IMG/VR virus record: IMGVR_UViG_3300009335_000007
Coordinates: 1 to 26,782 of that record
Direction: 5' to 3' (one strand)
Length of the DNA: 26,782 nucleotides
Origin: a virus
This document shows positions 10,615 through 22,200 of the stretch, piece after piece. Below the pieces are notes generated by a model. It was not told the origin of the DNA, ran no database searches, and saw only the letters and a program-made list of their open reading frames with translations. Numbering within the stretch: the first letter of the stretch is position 1; the number at the start of each line of letters is the position of its first letter. A program made the position numbers and the translations under genes.

Positions 10615-10642
10615 AATTATATCACACATGAGAAGAAATCAA

Positions 10643-11263
10643 ATGATAATAGGTATTACTGGTTTAATAGGCTCAGGCAAAGGTACAGTTGCCGATATTC
10701 TAGTTGAAGAACACAATTACATTAAGTTAAGTTTTGCAGACAAACTCAAAGACGGAGTTGCAACTGTATTTGGTTGGGAACGTTCTATGCTTGAAGGTGA
10801 CTCAGTAGAGAGCAGAGAATGGCGTGAAACTGTTGACGAGTTTTGGACTAATGAAACAGGTAGAGAAATAACACCTAGACTTGTATTACAAGAGTTCGGT
10901 ACAGACTGTATGAGAAATGGTTTCTATGACGGAGTATGGGTCAGTCTTGTTAAACAAGAAATACTTAATCATGCTCAAACAAAATACATCATTCCTGATG
11001 TACGATTCAAAAATGAAATAAAAGTTATCAAAGAACTTGGTGGTGAAATTTGGAATATCAGACGAGGTGAACTACCAGAATGGTGGGGAACTGCGATACT
11101 CGATAATCAAACTAATTCTACACTTATGAAAGATAATCATCCTGAAGTTCATCAAAGCGAATGGAAATGGATTAGTACTAATGATACCTTTGATAAAATA
11201 CTTTATAATGATGATAGCATCAAGGCTTTATATAGTAAAGTTTCGGCTGAGTTGTCTACGTAG
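10643..11263 (+). CDS. Deoxynucleoside monophosphate kinase (T4 gp1-like)
   Basis: P-loop kinase of about 206 residues. The Walker A motif GLIGSGKGT starts a few residues from the N-terminus. The central QEFGTDCMRNGFYDGVWVSL block and the PDVRFKNEIKVIKELGG block match phage dNMP kinases, where T4 gp1 has QALGTD and PDTRQDHE. The enzyme would phosphorylate dNMPs to dNDPs for phage DNA synthesis in the cytoplasm. An in-frame ATG at 10628 exists. I prefer 10643 because the sigma70 start near 10621 would leave 10628 with only a seven-base leader, whereas AGAAG precedes 10643. It is an early-type gene enclosed by late structural genes. The exact nucleotide specificity is not readable. Confidence 0.85.
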   Translation: MIIGITGLIGSGKGTVADILVEEHNYIKLSFADKLKDGVATVFGWERSMLEGDSVESREWRETVDEFWTNETGREITPRLVLQEFGTDCMRNGFYDGVWVSLVKQEILNHAQTKYIIPDVRFKNEIKVIKELGGEIWNIRRGELPEWWGTAILDNQTNSTLMKDNHPEVHQSEWKWISTNDTFDKILYNDDSIKALYSKVSAELST

Positions 11264-11358: not shown

Positions 11359-14040
11359 ATGGCTACATTAGTATCACCAGGGGTTGCAGTAACAGTCAGT
11401 GACGAATCACAATACGCCGCGGCTACTCAAGGTACATTACCATTATTAGTTATTGCTACGGCAAGTAACAAGTCAGATGCGTCTGGCAGTGCAACTGCTT
11501 CTGGAACAATTCCAGCGAATGCAGGTGTTGCCTATCTCGTATCATCACAGAGAGAGTTAGTCGAAACATTCGGCGAACCAAAATTTTATGAAGTTGGCGG
11601 TTCAGTTGTCCAGGGTTCTGAGACAAGTGAATATGGACTACTAGCGGCATATCAATATCTAGGAGTTTCAAATAACGCTTACGTTATTCGTGCAGATGTT
11701 GACTTGTCAGAACTAGAAGCATCTTCAACAGAACCAGCAGGCGTTATCACAAACGGTACATACTGGCATGATACTTCGAAATCAAAATTCGGATTATTCA
11801 CATGGTCAGGAACAGCGTGGGTGGCAAATGCACTTTCAGTTCTAGAGGACACTCCAGGAACAGGAAACGTAGAGGCAATCTCAGGCGGTTTTGCGGCACC
11901 TTCAAACACACACGGCTCAACAGGAGACTTCGCAGTTGTAACATCTACTGCTAAAGTTTCATATTATGAAAAAGTTGCAAGTGCATGGATATTATGCGGT
12001 GACACAGGTTCATCAGATTTCCAATTTTCACAATTTGCTCCAACTACACAAAAAGGTGGTGGTGCCCTAGCGGCAGGCGATGCTTATGTTCGTCTAGCAA
12101 CTGCAGGTAGTGGTTTAGATGTATCTTTATCATCTTACAACTCTACTTCAGGCTTATTCACAAACGTTGAAGCACCAATTTCTACAACAGATGATTTAGC
12201 ACAGGCAGCCAACAATGACCTAGGCGATGTTTATACTAGATATAACACAGCGGCTAACGGTTTTGGTTTCTGGGAACTAAGACGCCACACAGGTGCAACT
12301 ACTACAGTTATTACCTCAGGTGCAGTTCCAAGTACATCAAGTATTACTGCTGATTTCACAGTTGAGGGTACACAGTTTACTCCTTCAGGTATCACTTTAG
12401 ATGCATTAATTACATCTTTACAAGCAAGTGCGGCCTTGAATACAGCAAACGTTAGTATCGAAAAAATTGGTACAAACAAAATTCGTTTCACTAAGACAGA
12501 CGGTTTAGAATTAAACATCGTTTTCGCTTCAGGTAAAGCGGCAGTTGGTTTCACAGATGACGATAACGTTGTATCAGTTTGGGAAGCATTATCTTACCAA
12601 GCAAGTGAAACACAAATTACAGGTACAATCGCAGAAGGAACATATTGGTTCAATGCAAGTTTAAACATTGAAGTAATGAAGAATGTTAACAACGGCGGTA
12701 ACATGGAATGGCAGAAGTATGCATGGTCAGAAGACGTAGACAGTCTTGCACCAAGCGAATGTCAAATAGTTACAGGTGCTCCGACAAAACGTAAAGACGG
12801 AACATCGGCTCTAGTAGCAGGCGATATATGGGTAGATGGTGACGACACTAACTATCCTGTAACATATCGTTGGTCAGGTTCAGCATGGGTCAAATTAGAC
12901 AATGCAGACCAGTCATCTACAGCAGGACTAGTATTCAGTCATTATTCACATGATGCACCTTATGATTCAGCAGGTGCGGCAAACAGCAGAACAGAACACG
13001 CATCAGCGGCTAATCCAGATTTATATCCAGAAGACATTCTGATGATTAACATGGATTACTCTACTTGGAACGTTAAGAAATATACTAGCGGCAAGTGGGA
13101 ATGGGCTTCAGGTGTAAACACTGATGGTTCTGGTAAGTTTGGCGGCGATGCTCAACGACACATGGTTGTTGAAGCAATGCAATCAGCACTCAATTCAAAT
13201 GATGGAATTCGTTCAGAAGCGGTTTACTTTAATCTAATTTCTACTCCAGGATACTTTGAGTTAATGGATGAGATGATTACATTGAATAAAGACAAGAAAG
13301 AAATCGCATTTGTTATCGGTGATTGTCCAATGACATTGAAATCAGATTCGACTTCAATGAAAGCATGGGGAACATCTAATGTTCCAGCAGAAACTTATGG
13401 GGCAATTTACTATCCACATGGCTTGTCAAGTGACTTGGCAGGTAATGACGTAGTTATACCTTCATCAGCAATTGCACTAAGAACTATTGCTTTCTCAGAC
13501 CAGGTATCATATCCATGGTTTGCTCCAGCAGGTCTTACTCGTGGTGTAGTTTCAAACGCAACACAAGTTGGTTATATCAACTCAGAAGATGAGTTTGTTA
13601 AAGTACAATTAAGCGAAGGTCAACGTGACGTTCTTTATGGACAACGTATGAACCCAATCGCAGACTTCCCATCAACAGGAATGGCAGTTTATGGTCAGAA
13701 GACTACACAAGCAACTGCTAGTGCTTTAGATAGAATCAATGTTGCACGTTTAGTTAACTACATGCGTCATAACTTAGACCAATTATCTCGTTCATTCTTA
13801 TTCGAAACAAATGATAAGATTACACGTGATAATATGAGAGATGCAGTTGAAAGATTCTGTGGTAATCTTGTTACACAAAGAGGTTTATATGACTTCTTAG
13901 TAGTATGTGACGAGTCAAATAATACACCAGCAAGAATTGACAGAAACGAATTATGGGTAGATGTTGCAGTTCAACCAGCGAAAGCAGTTGAGTTCATTTA
14001 TATCCCACTTCGTATCAGAAATACTGGCGAAACATTATAA
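11359..14040 (+). CDS. gp18: Tail sheath protein gp18, enlarged
   Basis: 893 residues against 659 in T4. The N-terminus (MATLVSPGVAVTVSDESQYA) and the C-terminal block (DNMRDAVERFCGNLVTQRGL, then RIDRNELWVDVAVQPAKAVE) are those of contractile sheath subunits. The C-terminal domain also has SSAIALRTIAFSDQVSYPWF and ADFPSTGMAVYGQKT, the conserved handshake-domain region. The extra length lies in about residues 120-595. That region contains at least six loose modules of the form G-x-[YIF]-W/V ... W-x-G-x-A-W-V, such as GTYWHDTSKSKFGLFTWSGT and GDIWVDGDDTNYPVTYRW. Similar modules occur in the fibre-like protein at 9543. They would be displayed outside the contracting core. A terminator follows directly. 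Confidence 0.93.
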   Translation: MATLVSPGVAVTVSDESQYAAATQGTLPLLVIATASNKSDASGSATASGTIPANAGVAYLVSSQRELVETFGEPKFYEVGGSVVQGSETSEYGLLAAYQYLGVSNNAYVIRADVDLSELEASSTEPAGVITNGTYWHDTSKSKFGLFTWSGTAWVANALSVLEDTPGTGNVEAISGGFAAPSNTHGSTGDFAVVTSTAKVSYYEKVASAWILCGDTGSSDFQFSQFAPTTQKGGGALAAGDAYVRLATAGSGLDVSLSSYNSTSGLFTNVEAPISTTDDLAQAANNDLGDVYTRYNTAANGFGFWELRRHTGATTTVITSGAVPSTSSITADFTVEGTQFTPSGITLDALITSLQASAALNTANVSIEKIGTNKIRFTKTDGLELNIVFASGKAAVGFTDDDNVVSVWEALSYQASETQITGTIAEGTYWFNASLNIEVMKNVNNGGNMEWQKYAWSEDVDSLAPSECQIVTGAPTKRKDGTSALVAGDIWVDGDDTNYPVTYRWSGSAWVKLDNADQSSTAGLVFSHYSHDAPYDSAGAANSRTEHASAANPDLYPEDILMINMDYSTWNVKKYTSGKWEWASGVNTDGSGKFGGDAQRHMVVEAMQSALNSNDGIRSEAVYFNLISTPGYFELMDEMITLNKDKKEIAFVIGDCPMTLKSDSTSMKAWGTSNVPAETYGAIYYPHGLSSDLAGNDVVIPSSAIALRTIAFSDQVSYPWFAPAGLTRGVVSNATQVGYINSEDEFVKVQLSEGQRDVLYGQRMNPIADFPSTGMAVYGQKTTQATASALDRINVARLVNYMRHNLDQLSRSFLFETNDKITRDNMRDAVERFCGNLVTQRGLYDFLVVCDESNNTPARIDRNELWVDVAVQPAKAVEFIYIPLRIRNTGETL

Positions 14041-14060: not shown

Positions 14061-14088
14061 AAAACCCCTCCTCAGTGAGGGGTTTTTT
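14061..14088 (+). terminator. Rho-independent terminator after gp18
   Basis: CCCCTC (14065-14070) pairs with GAGGGG (14077-14082), extended by AAAA/TTTT on the outside and followed by a T run to 14088. Confidence 0.92.
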
Positions 14089-14110
14089 ATTGGGCGACTA
14101 TATGCTAACT

Positions 14111-14118
14111 GATAAATA
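14111..14118 (+). promoter_or_regulatory. Late promoter abutting a start codon
   Basis: GATAAATA followed by CAGTT and then ATG 14124. A T4 late transcript starts six bases after the last A of the box, which is exactly the A of this ATG. No Shine-Dalgarno sequence is present upstream. Confidence 0.75.
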
Positions 14119-14123
14119 CAGTT

Positions 14124-16139
14124 ATGCGTATAAATGAAGTCATATTACACGAAGAAAAACTAGACGTAAAGTCAGTTATAACTTCGTCTATCAAAAAGTT
14201 AGATAAAGTCTTTAAGAACAACAAACACGAACTAAGAATAGTTGGTGGTGCTGTTCGAGACCTTGCTTTGGGTAAGATTCCTAAAGATATTGATTTGGCA
14301 ACAGACGCCACACCAGATGAAATGATTGCTATGCTCGATAAAGCAAGTATCAGACATAAACCAACAGGTTTAGAACATGGTACTATCACAGCAATCCTAG
14401 ATAACGAACCATTTGAAATCACAACATTAAGAGCAGATAAAGAAACTGACGGTAGACATGCTGAAGTTGAATTTGTTCGCAGTTGGGAAGAAGATGCTAA
14501 ACGTAGAGACCTAACATATAATGCTATGAGCATGGATATGGAAGGTAATGTATTTGATTACTTTGATGGAATGGATGATTTACAAGATAAAGTCAGTAAC
14601 TTCGTGGGTGATGCAGATGAACGTATCAAAGAAGATTATTTAAGAATACTCAGATACTTCAGATTTCAAGGTAGACTATCAACACCAAGTTGGAATGAAG
14701 ATACATTAAAAGCAATCAGTTCAAATGTAAAAGGTTTACAGAATATAAGTTCTGAACGTATATGGCAAGAAATGAGCAAAGTACTTTCAGGTAGAAATAT
14801 TGCTAACGTTTTAACTCATATGACTAAATCAGGTGTCAGTAAAGTTATAGGATTATCAACAAACGACTTGAACAAAGTAAAAGATAAAGGCAATCCTATT
14901 ATCGCATTAGCACAAATGGGTAACACGACAGACATAGTAAATCGTTGGAGATTGAGTAACAATGAAGCAGTTATGTTAGATTTTCTAGTTAAGAATAAAA
15001 ACAATTCACTTGACCAAAAGAAAGTAGAAGATATGATTGCTGATGGAATTGATAAGAGTTTAATTTCAGCATTAGTAACAATACAAGGTAAAGATTTAAA
15101 TGTTGATGCTAAAGTACCAGATTTTCCTGTAACAGGAGCAGATTTAATTGCAAAAGGTATGAATCCAGGACCAGAAATGGGTGCAAAACTTGGACAACTC
15201 AAGCAACAATGGAAGCAAAGTAACTTTACTGCTACTAAAGATGAATTGTTAAAAGAAAATTCAGACTTAGGTACTCAAAGAGGTAGATTAGAATACTATC
15301 TAAAGAAACCAGTTGAAGATGGAATGTTAGTTCATTTATCGGGTTTAGGAAAATTTCATAAAGGTAATGACGAATTAGCAGACATAGTACCAGAAAGAAA
15401 TGGTATGTATGCTTTACATCCTGATAAATGGGAAAGTACATTTTACAGTTTAACAAATAAAGATTTCAAAAAAATAGTTCACTACAAACCAACATTAATA
15501 AAAGCACCATCAGATATGATTGTTGCTGATATGGCTATTGCAAATAGATTTTACAGAACAGACAATCCAGAAGAGCAAGACCAACTTGCTAAAGAATACA
15601 AAGACAGTATAGGTAAAGATGTTTCTAGTATGAAAATGCCAGAAGTCATTATGTCTGCATCAGTAAACGAAGATACAGACTTTGTTACACTTAAAAAAGG
15701 TGATAAACTTGTTAAGGTTCATAAATCTAGAGTATCACATTTTCTCGACAGACATTATAAAATTGTTGAGAAAATAACAAAAGCAACACCAATGGGTGCT
15801 GTTATTGATGATTTTTATAATAGTGATGCGCCTCAGTTTAAAGGTAAGAGCAAAGCAAAAAGAAGAGAAATGGCTATAGCGGCTAAGTTATCTAAGATGG
15901 ATGAAGCAGTTCATCAGTTTATGACAGGACATGATGTTACTTTTGGTGGTAAGAAGTATGATGAAATGGAAATTGAAGTAACTGGAGTTGATAATGCTAA
16001 TAGAAAATATAACATTATGATACTTACTCCAAAAGAATTATTTGGTAAAACAGTTGAAGTTAGTTCTAGATATATGAACAGAGGACCATGGACTAAGACA
16101 AAGACCCCTAATGTATTTGGAGAAAAAGATGCTCATTAG
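14124..16139 (+). CDS. tRNA nucleotidyltransferase (CCA-adding type) with large C-terminal extension
   Basis: 671 residues. Residues 40-190 hold class II nucleotidyltransferase motifs: VGGAVRD (40-46), the metal-binding D55-x-D57 in KDIDLATDATPDEM, LEHGTITAIL, DAKRRDLTYNAM (124-135) and EDYLRILRYFRF (170-181; EDxxR is the nucleotide-selecting motif). This family adds or repairs the 3' CCA of tRNA, or adds A to RNA; sequence alone does not separate the two. Helical head and neck regions run to about 380. An extra 290 residues of unknown fold follow, ending in a lysine-rich FKGKSKAKRREMAIAAKL segment. The first ten residues, MRINEVILHE, resemble a T4 capsid-targeting peptide ending in [LI]-x-E. 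It has its own late promoter and overlaps the next gene by 11 bases. Confidence 0.85.
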   Translation: MRINEVILHEEKLDVKSVITSSIKKLDKVFKNNKHELRIVGGAVRDLALGKIPKDIDLATDATPDEMIAMLDKASIRHKPTGLEHGTITAILDNEPFEITTLRADKETDGRHAEVEFVRSWEEDAKRRDLTYNAMSMDMEGNVFDYFDGMDDLQDKVSNFVGDADERIKEDYLRILRYFRFQGRLSTPSWNEDTLKAISSNVKGLQNISSERIWQEMSKVLSGRNIANVLTHMTKSGVSKVIGLSTNDLNKVKDKGNPIIALAQMGNTTDIVNRWRLSNNEAVMLDFLVKNKNNSLDQKKVEDMIADGIDKSLISALVTIQGKDLNVDAKVPDFPVTGADLIAKGMNPGPEMGAKLGQLKQQWKQSNFTATKDELLKENSDLGTQRGRLEYYLKKPVEDGMLVHLSGLGKFHKGNDELADIVPERNGMYALHPDKWESTFYSLTNKDFKKIVHYKPTLIKAPSDMIVADMAIANRFYRTDNPEEQDQLAKEYKDSIGKDVSSMKMPEVIMSASVNEDTDFVTLKKGDKLVKVHKSRVSHFLDRHYKIVEKITKATPMGAVIDDFYNSDAPQFKGKSKAKRREMAIAAKLSKMDEAVHQFMTGHDVTFGGKKYDEMEIEVTGVDNANRKYNIMILTPKELFGKTVEVSSRYMNRGPWTKTKTPNVFGEKDAH

Positions 16140-16743
16140 AGAGATAATTTCAGAAAAACCAGAAAGCAAACCGATTGTTTATGTTGATATGGATGGAGTT
16201 CTAGCAGATTTTTTTTCTGAGTGGGCAAAAATGGCAGGAATTAAAAGTGGCAATTGGAAAGATATTCCTAGAGAAGATATTAATAAAACATTGGACAAAA
16301 TGATTGGCACAGATTTTTTTGCTAAACTTCCAAAATTTTCTACCGCAGATAAATTAATTCAAATGATTATAAATAATTTTGGCTCATATAAAATATTAAG
16401 TTCGCCACTTAGAAATGACCATGAGAACAGTAAAAGACATAAGATAGATTGGGTTGGAAGAAAATTAAAGATTAAACCAGAAGAAACTATTATATCTAGT
16501 AATAAAGGTGCATATGCTACTCAACCTGATGGCACACCAAACATATTAATTGATGACTTAGGTAAAAATGTTCAGAATTGGATGAATAATGGTGGTCTTG
16601 GAATAAAATATCAAGCAGACGAAGACCCATTATCAAAAGTACAACAATGGCTTTCTCAGTTTAGAAAAGGCGCAGTAGCACAAGAATCAGTTATTGCTGA
16701 ACGAGAGGAAAACATATTTGAGAAGGACAGTGCAATTAAGTAA
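16129..16743 (+). CDS. HAD-superfamily 5'(3')-nucleotidase-like phosphatase
   Basis: 204 residues from ATG 16129, chosen because GGAG lies seven bases upstream; ATG 16111 in the same frame has no ribosome site. HAD motif I is VYVDMDGVLADF, with nucleophile D20 and acid D22. Motif II is the Ser in ILSSPLR, and motif IV is ILIDDLGKNVQNW. This layout is typical of the NT5C-type deoxyribonucleotidases found in phages, which remove phosphate from (deoxy)nucleotides. The N-terminus MLIREIISE-K resembles a capsid-targeting peptide (compare Alt, MELITE). Its start overlaps the end of the CCA-type enzyme, so the two are translated together from a late mRNA. A phosphatase acting on RNA 3' ends is an alternative that cannot be excluded. 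Confidence 0.8.
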   Translation: MLIREIISEKPESKPIVYVDMDGVLADFFSEWAKMAGIKSGNWKDIPREDINKTLDKMIGTDFFAKLPKFSTADKLIQMIINNFGSYKILSSPLRNDHENSKRHKIDWVGRKLKIKPEETIISSNKGAYATQPDGTPNILIDDLGKNVQNWMNNGGLGIKYQADEDPLSKVQQWLSQFRKGAVAQESVIAEREENIFEKDSAIK

Positions 16744-17315: not shown

Positions 17316-17912
17316 ATGGCAAGAACATTAAACAATTTTGGTGTACCAACTGACTCCGGTTCGGATGCAGTCGGCACTGGTATTCTACAACCAAAACTAA
17401 ACTATAGATTCCGTGTAGTAGTTGCTGGTTTTGGTGGAACTGGAACAAGTTCACAAGAATTCACAAGACAGGTTATGAATGTATCACGACCTAAAGTATC
17501 ACATGAGTCAATTCCATTAGATTCATACAACTCACGTATGTATGTTATGGGTAAGCACACATGGGAACCAATTACAATAACATTGCGTGACGATATCGCA
17601 AACAACCTAACTAAACTAGTTGGTCGTCAAGTACAATCACAGTTAGACCATAAAAATCAAAGAGGTCCTTCAGCAGGTACTAATTATAAGTTTTCAACAT
17701 TGATTGAAATCTTAGATGGTAACTCTGGTGATGCGACTGAACAATGGCAATTAGAGGGTTGTTTCATTACAAATGCTGATTACTCGCAAACAGACTATGC
17801 GGTTTCAGACCCAGTTACAATCACTGTTACTCTACAATACGACAATGCTGTATTGAATGATGACATTATGCCACCAATGGACTTTATATCTGATTCTACA
17901 ATCGCAGGCTAA
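17316..17912 (+). CDS. gp19: Tail tube protein gp19
   Basis: 198 residues, slightly larger than T4 gp19 (163). The sequence has the tube-protein order: LNYRFRVVVAGF strand, FTRQVMNVSRPKVSHESIPL, SYNSRMYVMGKHTWEPITIT, LEGCFITNADYSQTDYAVSD and a final strand TITVTLQYDNAV. The same order is seen in gp19 of marine T4-like phages. It stacks as hexamers inside the sheath to form the DNA channel. It follows the sheath gene with the CCA/HAD operon inserted between. A second tube-like gene follows 20 bases later without a new promoter. Confidence 0.88.
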   Translation: MARTLNNFGVPTDSGSDAVGTGILQPKLNYRFRVVVAGFGGTGTSSQEFTRQVMNVSRPKVSHESIPLDSYNSRMYVMGKHTWEPITITLRDDIANNLTKLVGRQVQSQLDHKNQRGPSAGTNYKFSTLIEILDGNSGDATEQWQLEGCFITNADYSQTDYAVSDPVTITVTLQYDNAVLNDDIMPPMDFISDSTIAG

Positions 17913-20817: not shown

Positions 20818-21387
20818 ATGAAAACATTTAAACAATACCTAACAGAGTCAACAAAAGAACACAAATTCACATTGAGATTCTGTTGTGACTTAGATGAAGG
20901 AGAGGAAAATCGCATTGAGGCATTTTTGTCAAAATATGACCTTAAAACGATGTCAAAGACATCAACTACCCCTATCACTAAGAATCCAATGTTTTTCAAA
21001 GATGTAGAGAACTCAAAAGTTTCAAAAATTGATATAGTTACTGGTTATCCTCTATCAGCAGACATTCTAAGACAACAACTAAGTGATTTACTTAGTATTC
21101 ATCTTACTCATGTTGTAGTACATCCAGAAGGATGGGAACCTGAAGAAGAGGTTGTAGACGAAGACAAAGAGGCACTATTAGCATCAGACTATGACAAAAC
21201 GTCAGATGATGGCAAAACTTATGGTAAAACTTTTGTAGATAAATTTTTAAATGATTTAGAGAAAAAAGAACAAACAACTGTAGAGAATGAACTTAGCATT
21301 AAGCCTAAATCTGATACTCCACAAGAACAAATGTCAAAAGATGAGAAATCTACTCCATCTGTCATAACAGGAGACGAAAATGACTAA
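20818..21387 (+). CDS. Acidic virion-associated protein with capsid-targeting-like N-terminus
   Basis: 189 residues. The N-terminus MKTFKQYLTES closely matches the T4 internal-protein targeting peptide MKTYQEFIAEA (IPIII), and the [LI]-x-E cleavage pattern is kept at residues 8-10. A compact domain follows (about 15-108): HKFTLRFCCDLDEGEENRIE, FLSKYDLKTMSKTSTTPI, then SKIDIVTGYPLSADILRQQL. The C-terminal 80 residues are acidic and low in complexity. It has its own late promoter. The stop overlaps the ATG of the next gene by eight bases. An internal head or prohead-core role is inferred from the N-terminus. Family not recognised with confidence. Confidence 0.7.
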   Translation: MKTFKQYLTESTKEHKFTLRFCCDLDEGEENRIEAFLSKYDLKTMSKTSTTPITKNPMFFKDVENSKVSKIDIVTGYPLSADILRQQLSDLLSIHLTHVVVHPEGWEPEEEVVDEDKEALLASDYDKTSDDGKTYGKTFVDKFLNDLEKKEQTTVENELSIKPKSDTPQEQMSKDEKSTPSVITGDEND

Positions 21388-22123: not shown

Positions 22124-22200
22124 TGGCCTGCCCGACAAGATTCGAACTTGTGACCTTTGGTTCCGCAAACCAATGTTCTATCCAACTGAACTACGGGCAG
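22124..22200 (-). tRNA. tRNA-Arg (anticodon GCG), CCA encoded
   Basis: Read on the minus strand. Acceptor CTGCCCG pairs perfectly with CGGGCAG; D-stem GTTC/GAAC; anticodon stem TTGGT/ACCAA with loop TTGCGGA, so the anticodon is GCG. T-arm ACAAG, TTCGAAT, CTTGT. Discriminator G (22127) is followed directly by encoded CCA (22126-22124). Arg identity bases A20, C35 and G36 are present. It would read CGC and CGU. Bacterial cells normally read these with an ACG tRNA edited to inosine, so a GCG Arg tRNA is uncommon. It has its own sigma70 promoter, with the predicted start about two bases from the mature 5' end. Confidence 0.93.

Follow-up and report, generated by a model that had tools for sequence, protein, structure and literature searches.

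N-terminal tags on a phage CCA-adding enzyme and an adjacent NT5C-type phosphatase suggest packaging in the head

The DNA analysed here (the window) is a contig of 26,782 nucleotides (26.8 kb) from a marine T4-like phage in IMG/VR, record IMGVR_UViG_3300009335_000007. It was syntenic with the structural region of phage PA5oct, sharing the order dNMP kinase, sheath, tube, second tube-like protein, a head protein beginning MKTFKQYLTE, terminase and the virion protein phrog_13484. Between the genes for sheath (11359-14040) and tube (17316-17912) two overlapping ORFs were found, encoding a CCA-adding enzyme and a HAD phosphatase (Table 1). A first-pass annotation had described both genes, their N-termini and their sheath-tube location, all of which were borne out by ORF reading; its span, ending at 16200, covered just the 5' end of the HAD gene. 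The dNMP kinase-like gene (10628-11263) lies upstream of the sheath gene and has a PA5oct counterpart, EST35_0194, flagged as a virion protein by ESI-MS/MS. A phytanoyl-CoA dioxygenase-like (PhyH) gene was located amid structural genes (1349-2071). A PADLOC scan for defence families gave no matches.

Table 1. Features of the CCA-HAD locus in the window (a slash marks a predicted cut)
Feature	Position	Strand	Remarks
Terminator-like stem-loop with T run	14061-14092	+	Putative, from sequence reading; after sheath gene
Late-promoter-like box GATAAATAC	14111-14119	+	From sequence reading; same box at other late genes
CCA gene ORF	14124-16139	+	671 aa, begins MRINEVILHEEKLDVK
CCA tag MRINEVILHE	14124-14153	+	Predicted cut after E10 (LHE/E)
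Class II CCA-adding enzyme domain, residues 14-377	14163-15254	+	Human TRNT1, E=1e-81
Predicted cut LKE/N, residues 376-378	15249-15257	+	CCA domain end; LLxE kept though next module differs
Module M2, residues 386-516	15279-15671	+	Low pLDDT; also in other phage proteins
MID (524-547), IVE site (549), DUF6321-like module (550-594)	15693-15905	+	
Module M4, residues 599-663	15918-16112	+	Preceded by MDE/A; relatives mostly [LIM]xE/A
HAD gene ORF	16129-16743	+	204 aa, begins MLIREIISEKPESK
HAD tag MLIREIISE	16129-16155	+	Predicted cut after E9 (ISE/K)
HAD phosphatase domain, NT5C (5'(3')-deoxyribonucleotidase) type	16171-16674	+	
Disordered C-terminal tail	16675-16740	+	IAE and IFE sites
Second tagged late gene, MKTFKQYLTE/S	20818-21387	+	Homologue of MS-detected PA5oct virion protein
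tRNA-Arg(gcg), CCA encoded	22124-22200	-	Between head protein genes and terminase; also in G001

The box GATAAATAC ended 4 nt before the ATG of the CCA gene, and the spacing of 5 nt between ATAAATA and ATG corresponds to a very short leader. The same box stood upstream of most late genes in the window. The late promoter proposed in the first-pass annotation was thus recovered as a promoter-like sequence, which is consistent with late expression of the CCA and HAD genes. At tagged genes, the box GATAAATA was found exactly 5 nt from the ATG in the window (14111-14124), in G001 (86372), G006 (10053) and G010 (57409, 270170) and in PA5oct (180252). In the runs of G006 and G009, the listed tagged genes are closely spaced and had no late-promoter-like box. 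If GATAAATA acts like a T4 late promoter, the mRNAs of tagged genes would be leaderless or nearly so.

The 671-aa protein matched the Pfam PolyA_pol/CCA family (E=8e-35), and its top Foldseek matches were the human mitochondrial CCA enzyme (TRNT1), with 41% identity in the alignment. The CCA domain matched TRNT1 over the full length, tRNA-binding region included, and the class II head-domain motifs GGxVRD, DxD, RRD and EDxxR were read directly as VGGAVRD, DID, RRDLT and EDYLR. These results firmly support CCA addition, one half of the function originally proposed for the pair. The CCA enzyme of phage Atu_ph07 was also 41% identical. CCA was encoded in all 14 phage tRNA genes of relatives as well as in the window tRNA-Arg; since every phage tRNA gene examined already carries it, maturation of phage tRNAs was rejected as the likely main role of the enzyme. 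A tmRNA gene with the tag ANDNYQPEMAMAA was reported by ARAGORN at L115 15184-15530 (342-kb phage contig G010).

The HAD protein gave an NT5C-type Pfam match (E=1.5e-7), with which the PDB profile agreed, and its predicted fold was closest to NT5C (Z 15.7 vs 11.4 for the next HAD families). It carried the NT5C motif DxDGVxADF, and its catalytic positions were invariant across relatives. The first-pass annotation had attributed removal of 3' phosphates to this protein, so that the pair would form a kit healing tRNA 3' ends, the HAD acting ahead of CCA addition. The two genes are adjacent and often fused, and NT5C enzymes bear the name 5'(3')-nucleotidases, both of which would suit such a kit. 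However, sequence and fold matched nucleoside monophosphate phosphatases (Z 14-16), no polynucleotide 3'-phosphatase or Pnkp-type structure was among the matches listed from the sequence and fold searches, an absence not decisive taken alone, and the PHROG polynucleotide kinase match reached just E=7e-4 over 48 residues. Because the HAD is of NT5C type, 3'-phosphate removal was not supported, and we consider the healing kit very unlikely.

Each of the two proteins begins with a peptide of 9-10 aa ending in [LI]xE (L8-H9-E10 in the CCA protein, I7-S8-E9 in the HAD). This tag lies outside the enzyme fold: homology to human TRNT1 began at CCA residue 14 and the HAD fold matches at about residue 12, and both tags were predicted to be disordered (pLDDT about 30 for CCA and 40 for HAD). 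Among 24 distinct orthologous sequences, pN/pS was 0.064 for codons 2-11 of the CCA tag (pS 0.475), compared to 0.30 for the 9 codons after it and 0.116 for the CCA catalytic domain; by this measure purifying selection acts more strongly on the tag than on the catalytic core. In distant relatives, L or I at P3 and E at P1 were mostly kept while P2 varied (LHE, IYE, LQE, LKE, LNE); one distant form had VYE, and the P3/P1 pattern survived even a one-residue insertion. In six related sequences, 35 of 2606 candidate gene starts but just 7 of 5480 internal Met carried the tag motif M[RKL][ILV]x[DE][ILVF], which had been defined from the window and its IMG relatives (odds ratio 10.6, p=1e-11); the enrichment at gene starts persisted without the discovery genes (p=3e-9). 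Tagged genes formed runs of neighbours around the CCA gene in three relatives (G006, G009 and G010). Recurrence about 10-fold above internal Met, together with purifying selection, bore out the original observation of the peptides.

Homologues without the extension, named in the first-pass annotation as evidence that would count against it, do exist: the tag was absent in 11 phage CCA enzymes (Atu_ph07, Phosso and nine others inspected). The neighbourhoods of the Atu_ph07 and Phosso genes, the two inspected, differ from the sheath-tube locus, so in our reading the tag was acquired along with the late relocation, and the proposal is not refuted. Related HADs are numerous in marine phages and occur in untagged, tagged or fused versions, which makes the tag an add-on.

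Beyond the CCA enzyme recognised at first, the 671-aa protein proved to be a multi-module, polyprotein-like chain, CCA-M2-MID-D6321-M4. No fold could be assigned to M2-M4 (pLDDT below 50-70), and no NCBIfam match to M2 was found. In 61 IMG/VR relatives the CCA domain occurred in at least 14 architectures, combining CCA, NT5C HAD, SpoT-like HD, ParB-like, GNAT and other modules (HD_4, GNAT and NT5C confirmed by Pfam, ParB-like assigned by eye). These included CCA-M2-D6321-M4-HAD (G001), CCA-M2-HAD-SRPGR, CCA-HAD-ParB-like chains, CCA-M4-GNAT, ParB-ParB-SRPGR-CCA-HAD-GNAT and the 1216-aa ParB-HD-CCA-M4-HAD of G010, in which a SpoT-like HD hydrolase is fused to CCA. Stand-alone modules carried tags (MRLHDLFE/N on M2, MFIREITE/N on ParB, MRLYDLFE/N on an NMNAT-like module, MLIREIISE/K on the HAD), and fused modules had similar sites in their joints (SLFE/D, LLKE/N, LLGE/S, INE/A, LTE/A). 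M4 was preceded by [LIM]xE/A in most contexts and by LTE/S in one.

With module borders set by the analyst, [LI]xE was present at 15 of 29 junction types vs 1.5 expected from module-interior windows of the same length; the excess over shuffled linkers was modest (p=0.027 for [LI]xE, p=0.001 with [LIVMF] or a P1' filter). Inside the modules, again with analyst-set borders, 4 [LI]xE sites were counted vs 17.9 expected (one representative of each of 19 modules). Reversed and spaced control motifs were near expectation there, and the same genomes overall had 1.14-1.25 of the expected [LI]xE. Tagged CCA domains contained 1-2 sites vs 2-8 in the 11 untagged phage CCA enzymes (p=0.0007), the tagged sequences being one lineage and CCA lineages not being independent samples; one of the sites in tagged domains is the conserved ERIxEDYLRILR motif. 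In the window protein, [LI]xE sites were located at E5, E10 (tag), E170 (catalytic motif), E378 (CCA domain end) and E549 (later joint). Avoidance of LxE in the HAD family was rejected as a sign of packaging, since untagged HADs also have few sites and the depletion is not diagnostic. Because the modules are exchangeable and LxE-type sites mark the joints but are scarce within modules, we read the chains as head-packaged cargo, in part a polyprotein that the prohead protease would cut.

The NT5C HAD module was also observed inside many further long marine phage proteins of up to about 1,200 aa (L157, L165, L173, L193, L197 and similar loci), suggesting that the cargo-chain design is widespread among marine phages. 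LxE-type N-termini (LVE/DKNTHLE, LKEE/DKNTHLD) precede DUF6267 proteins (L114 9198-10547, L068 13649-14881) whose KWDGAPA motif looks by eye like the KxDG of ligases; zeta-toxin-like kinases nearby begin likewise (LKE/G, LQE/G, VEE/G). Both are possibly further cargo.

The PA5oct record flags 90 proteins as found by ESI-MS/MS, leaving 356 others. The tag motif was present on 6 flagged vs 5 other proteins (p=0.011) and its strict LxE form on 5 vs 2 (p=0.0045), in MS lists that contain likely contaminants such as ribonucleotide reductase. Tagged PA5oct proteins included MKINDIITE/G, whose gene adjoins the portal gene, MKLFEVFTLYE/D, VKIKDILVE/S, VRLNEINLIE/T and MKILEFNLTE/K. The PA5oct matches included neither the CCA nor the HAD enzyme; MS thus supports the tag and not these two proteins.

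A T4-type S77 prohead protease and gp23 were encoded in the relatives G001, G010, G012, PA5oct and Atu; no S77 prohead protease was found within the 26.8-kb window fragment itself. In the relatives, the N-terminus of gp23 read ALTE/SATAG, ALNE/SATAG, FLVE/NASAG or PLME/NATAG just ahead of the conserved mature part. Judged by sequence, gp23 propeptides would be cut behind LxE with S or N in the next position, a site type that the tags share; the comparison of tags with protease specificity proposed in the first-pass annotation thus gave a match to these predicted sites. Candidate site peptides for the S77 protease are MRINEVILHEEKL, ISEK and LLKENSD. Co-occurrence of tag and protease was rejected as an indicator: phages with tagged, fused and untagged HADs were not separated by S77/gp23, an untagged HAD was also present in an S77 phage, and short contigs were uninformative for this comparison.

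Tags of this kind might also bring proteins to the scaffold or the tail lumen as parts of the prohead core or virion, to be degraded or retained with no work in the next host. The T4 core proteins gp22, gp67 and gp68 are likewise gp21 substrates and are degraded (PMC9958956), and a tagged PA5oct protein of 73 aa is encoded beside the portal gene. Against this, the CCA motifs are kept in a domain matching TRNT1 at full length, the HAD catalytic positions do not vary, and the modules contain few protease sites, in contrast to a degradable scaffold; we regard such a structural role as quite improbable. Somewhat less improbable, though still unlikely, is that the CCA enzyme and the nucleotidase are ordinary late cytoplasmic enzymes whose N-terminal peptide serves assembly or interaction and has nothing to do with packaging. 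CCA enzymes are common in phages, the untagged ones being presumably cytoplasmic, and dNMP phosphatases suit nucleotide metabolism. However, the tag is strongly constrained and common to unrelated proteins, MS-flagged virion proteins among them; LxE is avoided inside tagged but not untagged CCA enzymes; a late-promoter-like box precedes the pair, which lies among structural genes; and the phage tRNA genes already encode CCA.

Packaging in the head via a cleavable N-terminal tag is instead well supported by these comparisons: the tag recurs, is under selection and is enriched in the PA5oct virion proteome, the gp23 sites match it, and the enzymes exist in tagged, untagged and fused versions. 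The original claim of head packaging and injection is thus supported in part, for packaging through the tag but not for the 3'-phosphatase role. By analogy with T4, we infer that the proteins are delivered with the DNA. In the mechanism we propose, an N-terminal capsid-targeting tag of about 10 residues would load both late enzymes into the prohead, where the S77 (gp21-type) protease would remove it after [LI]xE and leave mature enzymes to enter the host with the phage DNA. The CCA protein would be a modular cargo chain whose LxE-type joints are cut by the same protease, freeing the modules inside the head; cuts are expected at LKE/N and IVE/K, and probably at VNE/D and MDE/A. In the new host, the CCA enzyme would most likely restore the 3' ends of tRNAs that host defences have damaged, and the NT5C-type HAD would remove phosphate from nucleotides. 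Taken as a whole, we consider this explanation fairly probable.

Known host defences do act on tRNA CCA ends, which makes repair by an injected CCA enzyme plausible. ToxSAS defences pyrophosphorylate the CCA end, a mark removed by a phage HD hydrolase (PMC11559606), the kind of domain that one relative fuses to CCA, and Cas12a3 cleaves tRNA tails (PMC12851939). A pre-loaded CCA-adding enzyme would be a direct candidate for countering such damage. More tentatively, and somewhat short of probable, a large marine and Rak2-like myovirus lineage may carry interchangeable injected enzyme cassettes, tagged singly or fused into polyproteins and cut in the prohead, that counter tRNA-tail damage of the toxSAS/Cas12a3 type through CCA and SpoT-like HD. 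If the prohead protease also processes polyproteins, the tag and the LxE joints would allow injected phage proteins to be listed from genomes.

Our literature search found no report of cargo chains processed by a prohead protease or of packaged CCA enzymes. The cytoplasmic phage CCA enzymes (RaK2 gp031, Atu_ph07, Caulobacter phages) belong to the same enzyme family but have no N-terminal tag, a different neighbourhood where inspected, and normal LxE counts. The nearest known kinds are the T4 CTS/gp21 proteins, the SPN3US propeptide proteins and the polyvalent proteins. In the phiKZ-like phage SPN3US, head proteins are processed by an S77-type protease and ejected, but, in the parts of that report consulted, propeptides are mostly long (often >100 aa) and cut at A-x-E, and CCA or NT5C cargo is not noted there (PMC5694885). 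Polyvalent proteins of phages and conjugative elements (Iyer et al. 2017, PMC5512222) are long chains, encoded close to late genes, in which ParB-like, GNAT, phosphatase and nucleotidyltransferase domains are combined; they are described as presumably injected, and the abstract proposes processing by zincin metallopeptidases. The chains described here likewise join two or more disparate domains near late genes. Of the domains typical of polyvalent proteins, ParB-like (by eye) and GNAT modules were present and LPD23 matched weakly in a tagged gene nearby (E=0.026); no peptidase domain was seen. The chains differ in that their joints fit prohead protease sites and the tag reappears on modules standing alone; in PMC5512222 the term 'CCA-adding' is absent and 'prohead protease' appears just in a reference title. 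The likeness to the T4 proteins IPI-III and Alt (PMC9958956, PMC5694885) extends to a tag of some ten N-terminal residues that stays outside the mature fold and closes with [LI]xE, an expected cut after Glu, probable late expression, an S77 protease in relatives with head substrates apparently cut at LxE (the gp23 site as read from sequence), and presumed co-injection. The tag consensus, M[KR][IL]x[DE][ILV]..[LI]xE, differs from that of T4, and whereas T4 cargo consists of small single-domain proteins or Alt, the predicted cargo here comprises metabolic and RNA-repair enzymes fused into chains with internal sites.
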